A stretch of DNA of 57,021 bases. Origin: Candidatus Saccharimonadota bacterium (GTDB lineage Bacteria > Patescibacteriota > Saccharimonadia > Saccharimonadales > JACDBH01). Positions 8,594-15,817 of this stretch are shown here, piece after piece. Positions within the stretch are counted from its first letter, which is position 1, and the number at the start of each line of letters is the position of its first letter. Made by a program: the position numbers and the translations under genes. The stretch is from assembly GCA_013694995.1 (NCBI GenBank), contig JACDBH010000007.1:1-57021 (forward strand), read 5' to 3'. The notes under the pieces are model-generated. The model was not told where the DNA came from. It did not search any database and saw nothing but the letters and a program-made list of their open reading frames with translations.

Positions 8594-8613
8594 TCAAAAA
8601 CAGTAAAGAAGTT

Positions 8614-8661
8614 ACAAATGAAATCTGAATTTACTTCAGTTTCATTTGTTCTATGTTTTTT
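8614..8661 (+). terminator. Rho-independent terminator-like hairpin
   Basis: ACAAATGAAAtCTGAA tttac TTCAGTTTCATTTGT followed by TTCTATGTTTTTT. Confidence 0.75.
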
Positions 8662-8739
8662 GAAAGAGAAGAAAAGAGATAAGAAAACCTATCCGGAGGC
8701 CCCACTTAGGCGGGGCCGCGAATGGTTGTCTCGTTTCAG

Positions 8740-11764: not shown

Positions 11765-12325
11765 TTAAGCTTCAATGTCTGTTTTCTTATCAATATCTGT
11801 GTGAACAGCTACTTTTTCGCCAGCACCAGTATACTTGCTTCGGGTTTCAAATAAGAGCCATAAGCCTACTGCGCTTCCTAAGAGACTAAAGAACAGGCTT
11901 CCAATACCGCCACGACCATCTATGAAGAGGCTTGCAACACCATAAACTACATTAATTAATGATGCTAAGAAAAGAAGATCCCAGCCGCTCTTTTCGCGTC
12001 GCTTGAGTTTAGGATAGGCAATTAATAGGATTACAGCGTCAAGAACAAGCATTGCCAGTGCTATCCATACCCAGAGATCCCACCTAGTAGAAACAACTTC
12101 TTCACCACCGAAGGTTCGCGATAAGCTATTTGCATAGTCTACGAAATCATTGGCTGTCTTAGCCCAGGAATATAGAGCCCAGGCAGCTAGCAGCTGCAAC
12201 AAGCCACCAATTAGAGCCAACCAAGGCCATACCTTAACTAATGTTTCCCGCGTACTATCAGATAACTTTGGCGCACCCTTAAACACATCGGCCAAGCCAT
12301 CCTCGGCCTGTTTTAATAATGCCAT
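11765..12325 (-). CDS. Hypothetical multi-TM membrane protein
   Basis: 186 aa, about four TM segments; strong SD (AGGAGG) upstream. Confidence 0.75.
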   Translation of the reverse strand: MALLKQAEDGLADVFKGAPKLSDSTRETLVKVWPWLALIGGLLQLLAAWALYSWAKTANDFVDYANSLSRTFGGEEVVSTRWDLWVWIALAMLVLDAVILLIAYPKLKRREKSGWDLLFLASLINVVYGVASLFIDGRGGIGSLFFSLLGSAVGLWLLFETRSKYTGAGEKVAVHTDIDKKTDIEA

Positions 12326-12402
12326 ATGTACTTCCTCCTTTAATGATTACTCAAATCATAGCGCCAAAGCTTAGCAATTAGCAAGAGGTTATGCACAACA
12401 TA

Positions 12403-13428
12403 TTAAACAATAATCATTGCATCACCAAAGGAATAGAACCTGTATTTATTTGCTATCGCATGTGCGTAAATACTTTGTAGCTCAGTCACGGCCTGATTTT
12501 CTGTCATTTCTAGTTTGTCCGCAATAAATGACGCCGTCAGCATAAGCAGACTAGTGCTGGGAAGATGAAAGTTAGTAATAAGGCTGTTAATAACTTTAAA
12601 GCGATACCCCGGTTGTATAAAGATGTCAGTGTAGCTAGTCATGGGATTAAAGATGCCTTTGCTATCGGCAGCTGACTCCAATGTCCGTACCGTCGTAGTC
12701 CCGACAGCCGTTAAATGCCGAGCCTTGTTCAAAACTGCAGCTGTTTGTTCACTGATGCTGTAATACTCTTCATGCAACTTACCAATTTTAAACTGCTCTT
12801 TGGTTAGCTTGGCAAAGGTCCCAAGTCCTACATGCAAAGTTATCTCAGTAACATTATGGTTGGTGCTTATTCTGCTTAGTAATTTATTAGTAAAATGTAA
12901 GCCAGCCGTCGGCGCTGCCAGGCTTCCAACTGGTTTGGCATAAACAGTTTGGTAATCATTAGCTAAGCTTTTGTCCTGTTTAATGTAAGGAGGCAGTGGT
13001 ACGTGCTCGTAAATTTTTAACCTTGGGTCGTCATGGCCTACATTCATCCTTAAAGTCCTAACGCCGCCTTCATCAATGGCCAGCACGGAAGCTTGAAGCC
13101 ATGCCGTAAGTTTAACCCTACTATCGATACTAAACTTACGACCCGGCCGTACCATAGCCCGCACTGTATGGCTATCTGTTTTTTCTAATACGAAAATTTC
13201 TGTTTTCCCATCATCAAACAACCATCTGCAGTGCTCTACCTTGCTGTTATTGAGCACAAGGGTTGATTCTAATGGCAAGTACTTAGGTAACTCATGAAAA
13301 TATGTATCGGTTATAGAACAATCATTAAGACTGTAAACTAGCAACCTTGCATGGTCGCGCGGATGAGCAGGTTTTTGAGCGATCAGCGAATCAGGCAAAT
13401 CAAAATAATACTTTTTTAACTCTTCCAT
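12403..13428 (-). CDS. queA: S-adenosylmethionine:tRNA ribosyltransferase-isomerase
   Basis: 341 aa; FDLPDSLIAQKPAHPRDHARLLV, PTAGLHFT, VGLGTF, NFHLPSTSLLMLTASF. Confidence 0.96.
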   Translation of the reverse strand: MEELKKYYFDLPDSLIAQKPAHPRDHARLLVYSLNDCSITDTYFHELPKYLPLESTLVLNNSKVEHCRWLFDDGKTEIFVLEKTDSHTVRAMVRPGRKFSIDSRVKLTAWLQASVLAIDEGGVRTLRMNVGHDDPRLKIYEHVPLPPYIKQDKSLANDYQTVYAKPVGSLAAPTAGLHFTNKLLSRISTNHNVTEITLHVGLGTFAKLTKEQFKIGKLHEEYYSISEQTAAVLNKARHLTAVGTTTVRTLESAADSKGIFNPMTSYTDIFIQPGYRFKVINSLITNFHLPSTSLLMLTASFIADKLEMTENQAVTELQSIYAHAIANKYRFYSFGDAMIIV

Positions 13429-13446
13429 TAAACAATGTTAGCAATA

Positions 13447-14199
13447 TTATTTCAGATAGTAACTAACTGTAACGCTGTAACTTATTTCATTCTCGCCAGG
13501 CTGGACACTCAGGCTTGATTCTGTCTTACTTCTTTCATCTGATAACGTAACAGAGTCATATGGCGTAATGCCCCCGAATCCAGCGCCATCTTCAACTGAT
13601 TGAACTTTGCCTAAATTTGCGCCCAGATTACGAGCCGACTGTTCTGCCTTTGCCCGGGCGTCTTTAGTAGCCTCGTCACGGGCTTGGGATTCTAATTCTT
13701 TACGCTTTTCGGTACTGAAGGAAGGCTGAGGTGAAATCGTACCACTTGGGTCAGTTGTAATAAGATAATTCTGAATTTTCTGAGCCATTTCTTGGTCGCT
13801 AACAGTTACTGTCAGTTGTAAAGTGAACGTTGTGGTTCCATCGTCGGATTTTTCAGGGTAATAATACTTATTATCGTAATTACTGGAGTTGGTCTTTATA
13901 TCTTTATCTTCAACCCCTAATTCTTTAAGTTTTGCTACTAGTTCATCGCTCTTTTTACTCAAAGCAGCGATTCCAGCTTGGCTGTCAGTGTTTTTTAGCT
14001 CATACATTGGGTAAAATACAAATTCGTCAGGGGTGGTTTTGACGACAGCCTCACCGGTGACTTTTACTGTTCGGTCATTACTTGTAGCACCTGCCCACGG
14101 CCGCCATACGGCCAGCATGCCAATTACTACGGCTGCCAGGATCAAACTAATAATACGAAAATCCAGGTTGAGCGTTAATTTGCTATTGTTTTCTGCCAT
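13447..14199 (-). CDS. SIMPL domain-containing (DUF541) protein
   Basis: 250 aa; N-terminal TM then VKVTGEAVVKTTPDEFVF... and KAEQSARNLGANLGKVQSVEDG typical of SIMPL. Confidence 0.85.
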   Translation of the reverse strand: MAENNSKLTLNLDFRIISLILAAVVIGMLAVWRPWAGATSNDRTVKVTGEAVVKTTPDEFVFYPMYELKNTDSQAGIAALSKKSDELVAKLKELGVEDKDIKTNSSNYDNKYYYPEKSDDGTTTFTLQLTVTVSDQEMAQKIQNYLITTDPSGTISPQPSFSTEKRKELESQARDEATKDARAKAEQSARNLGANLGKVQSVEDGAGFGGITPYDSVTLSDERSKTESSLSVQPGENEISYSVTVSYYLK

Positions 14200-14291
14200 T
14201 TATTTAAGCTCCGTTTATGCTTTTTAGTGTGCTCCAGCTATTAAAAAATGTCAAAATATGTAGTTTTATAAGCTAGTAAATATAAAACTAC

Positions 14292-14320
14292 TTGACAAAT
14301 TCATAAAAGCGTGCTACAAT
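14292..14320 (+). promoter_or_regulatory. Sigma70-type promoter for candidate ncRNA
   Basis: TTGACA (14292-14297), 17-nt spacer, TACAAT (14315-14320), with extended -10 TGC. Confidence 0.8.
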
Positions 14321-14326
14321 GTAATT

Positions 14327-14600
14327 ACAAACGTATTCTCTTAAATAAAAGTGAAAACTAAACAGTTTAATAACTTATTATCCCTTGCTTAACGCAAGCG
14401 TTCGAATGCTTATTATAGTGACACAGTTTAGTCCGAGTAACGAAACGTAAACCGATATTATTAAGAAAGTAATGTTTGCAACAACATACTAAAGTGCGCG
14501 GGTATGACCGACTCAATTAGTTTGGTCCTAATCAAACTTAGTTCTTTACGCGCACTACAATGATTAGCAATGGGAAAACTTCCGTGCTAATTGAATTTAT
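14327..14600 (+). ncRNA. Candidate structured non-coding RNA (family unknown)
   Basis: No plus-strand ORF in track; long-range helix ACTAAAC(14357-14363)/GTTTAGT(14426-14432); CTTGC/GCAAG hairpin; AGTGCGCG(14493-14500)/CGCGCACT(14549-14556) enclosing AGTTTG/CAAACT; ATTAGCA(14563-14569)/TGCTAAT(14585-14591) enclosing GGAA/TTCC. 3' end not defined. Confidence 0.6.
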
Positions 14601-14615
14601 GCACTTATAAGATTA

Positions 14616-15221
14616 TTATGCCTGCTCCAAAGGAAAATGGTGTATTAAAGTTTCTGTTGATATAGTACTGAGCACGGTTTTTCCAAAATCCAAGGCATAA
14701 AGCATATCATTGACGTCTACATTTAATATTACGTCGTCACGCCGGCGCCTATATATATCCGCCATTGCCGGGGCGAAATACCTAAAGTCCGTATCATTTA
14801 CTACGAAAAACATTAAGGGCTTAGCAATTTTGTTATTTTGTATGCCCTCACGGTCCCTGAGTTCGGCATTGACGCGAAGTTTTGCTTCATCGGTATACGG
14901 CAGACAAAAATGCTTCACCAGTGTGCTCGATGTCCCGTTCTCACTGTCTGGCAATACTTCGTTAGTGACTATATGGATGTCGGGCCGATCATAATTATTT
15001 TTCACTGTTCTTTTAAAGAAATTAATCATCAAAACGTCGGTCCTAGACCCTTCGGGTTTAATAGACGAGGCAGGAAGGTAGTTTCGTAGACGATGCACGC
15101 ACACACCTGAACCATTTTTCGATAGTCCCAGCGATCCCATCACATATACGACATCCTGCCTGAAACGGGTGGCCTCTTCAAAATAATTAGCTGTGGAATT
15201 ATTTTTATCTGCGAGTGACAT
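14616..15221 (-). CDS. Hypothetical protein
   Basis: 201 aa ORF, no recognised domain. Confidence 0.65.
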   Translation of the reverse strand: MSLADKNNSTANYFEEATRFRQDVVYVMGSLGLSKNGSGVCVHRLRNYLPASSIKPEGSRTDVLMINFFKRTVKNNYDRPDIHIVTNEVLPDSENGTSSTLVKHFCLPYTDEAKLRVNAELRDREGIQNNKIAKPLMFFVVNDTDFRYFAPAMADIYRRRRDDVILNVDVNDMLYALDFGKTVLSTISTETLIHHFPLEQA

Positions 15222-15319
15222 AGTAATTACTTTTATTATGCTTTGGTTATATTTATACCCTTTGTTGTCAATAATGCAAAACTTTTGTTCATATACTACT
15301 CAAGGTTATAGTTAGTTGA

Positions 15320-15817
15320 ATGGCAAATTACAAAGGGCATGTGGTTGGCGGGGCAGCAGCAGGGGCAATTTATGCTCTAGCCTTGGCTTATGTTCCGGTG
15401 GAGCGCTTTGCAGAAGCCGCAGGAGTTTTGTATGACGCCCAGGCTCTAGCGGCAATTATCATCATTGCGATTTTATTCGGGCTATTCCCGGATGTAGACA
15501 CCAACAGCAAGGCCCAGGATTTATTTTTTGGTATTATTTTCCCACTCGATATATTACTTCTCTGGAACGGGCAAATTGAGGCCGCAGCATACTTAGGGCT
15601 TATTGCGATGCTGCCGATTATAGGCCACCACCGCGGCTGGACGCATAAAAAGTGGGCTATGCTAATAATTCCTTTGCCGATACTACTTATCCCGTATCTT
15701 TATAACGATAAAATACTTCCAATCTCTACAGTTTATTATGGTGCCGCGGTTGCCGGCTATTTCAGCCATTTACTGTTTGATGGGTTAGTCTGGCGCAAAT
15801 TTCGGATTAAGAATTAG
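15320..15817 (+). CDS. Membrane-bound metal-dependent hydrolase (YdjM/DUF457-like)
   Basis: 165 aa; N-terminal GHVVGG, FPDVDTNSKAQ, HHRGWTHKKW. Confidence 0.8.
   Translation: MANYKGHVVGGAAAGAIYALALAYVPVERFAEAAGVLYDAQALAAIIIIAILFGLFPDVDTNSKAQDLFFGIIFPLDILLLWNGQIEAAAYLGLIAMLPIIGHHRGWTHKKWAMLIIPLPILLIPYLYNDKILPISTVYYGAAVAGYFSHLLFDGLVWRKFRIKN

Follow-up and report, generated by a model that had tools for sequence, protein, structure and literature searches.

Does the near-consensus promoter at position 14,292 of a Saccharimonadales contig drive a new structured noncoding RNA, as the initial annotation proposed? The window analysed here (57,021 nucleotides) is contig C2 of a 765,679-base genome, 98.75% complete, from the order Saccharimonadales. 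Its 14292-14600 segment falls within a 416-bp intergenic gap, flanked by a SIMPL (DUF541) gene that starts at 14199 and a 201-aa gene that stops at 14616, both on the minus strand. The segment was found in one genome only among several hundred relatives, and our analysis suggests a lineage-specific small RNA at most. The features discussed below are collected in Table 1.

Table 1. Features in and around the 14292-14600 segment (positions in the window).
Feature	Position	Strand	Evidence
Perfect 11-bp inverted repeat, GTAGTTTTATA n10 TATAAAACTAC, abutting the -35 box	14260..14291	.	Inverted-repeat listing
-35 box, TTGACA	14292..14297	+	Promoter scan and genome pattern count
Extended -10, TGC + TACAAT	14312..14320	+	Promoter scan and genome pattern count
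5′ half of the presumed transcript, with a putative start about 7 nt past the -10	14327..14480	+	Fold z about -0.8 to -1.0
Hairpin A, AGTGCGCG/CGCGCACT enclosing ATTAGTTTG/CAAACTTAGT	14493..14556	+	z -3.3 for 14488-14560
Hairpin B, GATTAGCA.TGGGA/TTCCGTGCTAATT, terminator-like stem without T tract	14562..14592	+	z -4.5 alone
Orphan gene of 201 aa, convergent with the segment; possible antisense partner	14616..15221	-	Layout, homology searches and codon bias

The near-consensus sigma70 promoter with a TGC-extended -10 that the initial annotation described is present as sequence at 14292-14320 on the plus strand, with a 17-nt spacer ending in TGC and 11 of 12 consensus matches. Such promoters are rare: the 57-kb window holds two sites with at least 11 matches, this one included, and the other lies upstream of a protein gene. 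Across the genome, the pattern TTGACA-N16-18-TANAAT occurs at 15 sites, against 2 for the backwards pattern used as a control. Reading the flanks of all 15 placed most of the others no more than about 150 nt before a protein start, and the TGn extension is common to most of the genome's other near-consensus promoters. Because of this excess over the reversed pattern and the position of the other sites, the 14292 promoter is unlikely to be a chance occurrence. For one further near-consensus promoter, at C3:94823-94852(-) (locus L134), no obvious protein start follows closely on the promoter's strand.

The inverted repeat that abuts the -35 box is a possible operator or weak minus-strand terminator. 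It has a TTGACA on either side, one on the minus strand (14255-14250) and the plus-strand box at 14292, as if two divergent promoters shared it, but the minus side has no good -10.

Downstream, the plus strand between 14300 and 14640 contains no ORF of at least 25 codons; the two largest frames there (21 and 24 codons) both begin with TTG. The reported lack of a plus-strand ORF is thereby borne out. That a promoter leads into an ORF-less sequence is well supported by these scans, and the segment combines two features of independently transcribed bacterial sRNAs, a promoter of its own and no protein frame. A decayed gene was also considered and rejected: when translations were compared with 7205 reading frames from related loci, the three short local matches that emerged all fell outside 14200-14615.

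The structural claim survives in part. All the stem arms named by the initial annotation are present, namely ACTAAAC (14357)/GTTTAGT (14426), CTTGC (14384)/GCAAG (14394), AGTGCGCG (14493-14500)/CGCGCACT (14549-14556), AGTTTG (14519)/CAAACT (14533) and ATTAGCA (14563)/TGCTAAT (14585). The description of the whole as highly structured was not confirmed, since only 14478-14600 is exceptional against dinucleotide shuffles. The full segment gave z -1.6 to -2.4 in two runs, the 5′ half (14322-14480) folded no better than its shuffles, and the ACTAAAC/GTTTAGT domain alone gave z -0.1. The 3′ half reached z -4.1, all 300 of its shuffles being less stable, whereas its minus strand gave z -2.2, indicating that the promoter's strand folds better. 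The best 120-nt part of the segment (z -4.4) ranks second among the window's 13 long intergenic regions. The most stable intergenic fold of the window, at 8609-8728 between converging genes (z -4.9 plus, -5.6 minus), is probably a two-way terminator.

Hairpin B is followed by GAATTTATGC, and terminator prediction called no intrinsic terminator at the 3′ end of the segment. The genome's tmRNA, in contrast, ends in a stem followed by TTTTT.

Comparison with Rfam 15 assigned the segment to no known family, in line with the earlier observation that it lacks the hallmarks of tmRNA, RNase P RNA, SRP RNA and 6S RNA. At the gathering score the window contains two tRNAs and nothing at the segment; up to E = 5, the region gave a sole chance U7 match over the palindrome. 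A tmRNA or RNase P RNA identity was rejected, as neither model matches here and the genome's copies lie elsewhere (C4:88193-88581 and C7:113216-113657, respectively, by Rfam model). The SRP RNA model likewise failed to match the region at E values up to 5, the genome's own copy not being located, and the 6S RNA model (RF00013) matched nowhere in the genome. A retron or CRISPR element was rejected as well, with no reverse transcriptase or Cas gene among 16 neighbouring proteins checked.

BLASTN of the segment against sets of 61, 4 and 392 genomes, the last drawn from the order, returned one true match, the window itself. Fifteen other genomes gave weaker matches (E 0.0007-0.05) with an apparent cluster at 14454-14487; these are isolated matches of 20-40 nt, nearly all within long open frames, and were rejected as homology. 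A 24-nt match in G001 proved to be a further TTGACAAATTCAT promoter that precedes a recombinase-type gene. When 294 genomes were searched with a covariance model built on the 3′ half, the window alone was recovered. In a set of 30 genomes, among them the five reached via the nearest UvrD relatives, the model's hits stayed at chance level (best E 0.2). Phage and plasmid collections yielded chance matches only.

With no homologue by BLASTN or covariance model, and half of the claimed structure at chance level, the proposal of a new structured ncRNA is not upheld. The conservation test that the initial annotation had named failed, no relative being found in a genome set that includes three other members of the family (two of them less than 70% complete) and none of the genus. 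The lack of homologues leaves no basis for measuring covariation and no sign of selection. Since the set contains no same-genus member, a lineage-restricted RNA is possible.

This result can be set against a positive control from the same genome. One other promoter among the 15, at C5:82625, clearly leads into a long ORF-less sequence, adjoined by a DprA-like gene. The resulting C5 RNA (C5:82649-83034(+); L141:1525-1910, L146) spans about 380 nt behind its own TTGACA-17-TAAAAT promoter, folds with z -6.5, and has no Rfam match beyond chance. BLASTN detected it in 87 of 118 relatives. Alignment of 21 homologues revealed invariant C-rich segments, GUUGUUACCCUCCAC, together with CCCUUUAA pairing with UUGAAGGG, an invariant terminal hairpin loop, GGUGCCCACCCCC, and a T-rich end. 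The invariant C-rich loops include ACCCUCC, which is anti-Shine-Dalgarno-like, and 16 of 33 predicted pairs show at least one compensatory change.

By these features the C5 RNA looks like an undescribed, order-wide Saccharimonadales RNA. Its detection indicates that the comparison finds conserved RNAs in this order and that the 14292 segment is not among them: homologues with compensatory changes, the mark of a conserved ncRNA family, were not found for the segment, although the same type of BLASTN search found the control. The 21-homologue profile had no match in the 14292 region, and a diverged copy of the C5 RNA was rejected on that ground.

The genomic setting points to a variable site. 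The closest UvrD relatives are Candidatus Saccharibacteria. In three relatives (56-62% UvrD identity) NDH-2 lies next to UvrD or almost so, which marks the site as variable; the block that separates the two genes here, the segment included, is missing. This block (11765-15817) comprises a 186-aa membrane-like gene, QueA, SIMPL, the segment, the orphan gene and YdjM. QueA neighbours UvrD more loosely in two other relatives, and SIMPL and YdjM adjoin in G012. The surroundings of UvrD in the five nearest genomes found contain neither the segment nor the orphan gene, and a syntenic counterpart was therefore rejected.

The convergence on a hypothetical gene at 14616-15221(-) was described correctly. 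Codon bias in this gene is 0.054 in its own frame and negative in the other five (0.13-0.17 in three neighbours), and because the bias is confined to its own frame, the gene is probably real, if unusual. Its protein matched nothing in Pfam, PADLOC or PHROGs and is absent from 293 other genomes searched, and phage and plasmid collections hold no homologue of the gene. The orphan gene and the segment are thus alike in their absence from relatives.

We tentatively favour, at somewhat less than even confidence, an independently promoted, lineage-restricted noncoding transcript that probably overlaps the 3′ end of the orphan mRNA. Transcription would begin near 14327 and run for some 270 nt or more in the direction of the orphan gene. 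Since neither strand has a recognisable intrinsic terminator between the two units, the 3′ ends of the RNA and the orphan transcript would be expected to overlap. In that case the likeliest role would be antisense control in cis, exerted on the orphan mRNA through pairing with its 3′ end or through collision over it, while the hairpins would protect the RNA's own 3′ end. We infer this role from geometry only, namely the convergent layout and the lack of a called terminator.

The main rival, which we hold to be nearly as likely, is that the segment is non-functional: a real or leftover promoter would fire into variable, recently acquired or decaying DNA, the RNA would be noise, and the hairpins would be chance structures or relics. 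The lack of conservation shared by the segment and its neighbouring gene, the variability of the site and the unstructured 5′ half are all consistent with such noise. Against this rival, the genome has few near-consensus promoters, most of which look functional, and the 3′ half beats every shuffle and folds better on the promoter's strand.

A trans-acting, lineage-level small RNA unlinked to the orphan gene, with the 3′ domain as its stable body, would also account for the promoter, the missing ORF and the stable fold. We consider it unlikely, given that no homologue was found and that the T-tract terminator in which the genome's tmRNA and C5 RNA end is lacking here. Somewhat less probable again is a reading in which the segment would encode a lineage-restricted regulatory RNA whose 3′ domain consists of two hairpins. 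This RNA and the equally restricted orphan protein would form a small antisense-controlled module that was inserted at the SIMPL-YdjM site.

It is very improbable that the segment is a messenger for tiny peptides. Two candidate frames are visible, a 19-codon ATG frame at 14504 and a 16-codon frame ending at 14610, and the stop of the first overlaps the ATG of the second; yet neither is preceded by a Shine-Dalgarno-like sequence, frames so short are expected by chance, and they are not conserved. Least credible is the genome's 6S RNA or another housekeeping RNA too diverged for Rfam, a view encouraged by the strong promoter and by the failure of RF00013 but largely refuted, since tmRNA and RNase P RNA are located elsewhere, sister genomes should keep a housekeeping RNA and none has the segment, and the fold shows no long rod with a central bubble.

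If transcribed, the segment would represent a single small or antisense RNA at the level of one lineage of ultrasmall bacteria; for this group we found no small-RNA study in the open-access literature. The main value is methodological: a genome-wide promoter test separated this unconserved segment from a conserved, order-wide RNA that is not listed among known families.

Three systems place the cis-antisense reading in context. The C5 RNA shares the promoter type, the missing ORF and the missing Rfam match with the segment but differs in its conservation across relatives, its compensatory changes and its T-rich terminator. 6S RNA (RF00013) is likewise ORF-less and strongly promoted, and the genome has no recognised copy; the segment, however, has no Rfam match, no central-bubble rod and no counterpart in sister genomes. 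The closest likeness is to convergent, 3′-overlapping bacterial cis-antisense RNAs. Although the present case is known from sequence alone, has an orphan partner and belongs to no named family, it resembles them in its own promoter, its ORF-less course, its orientation toward the 3′ end of an opposite-strand gene and the lack of a terminator between the two.
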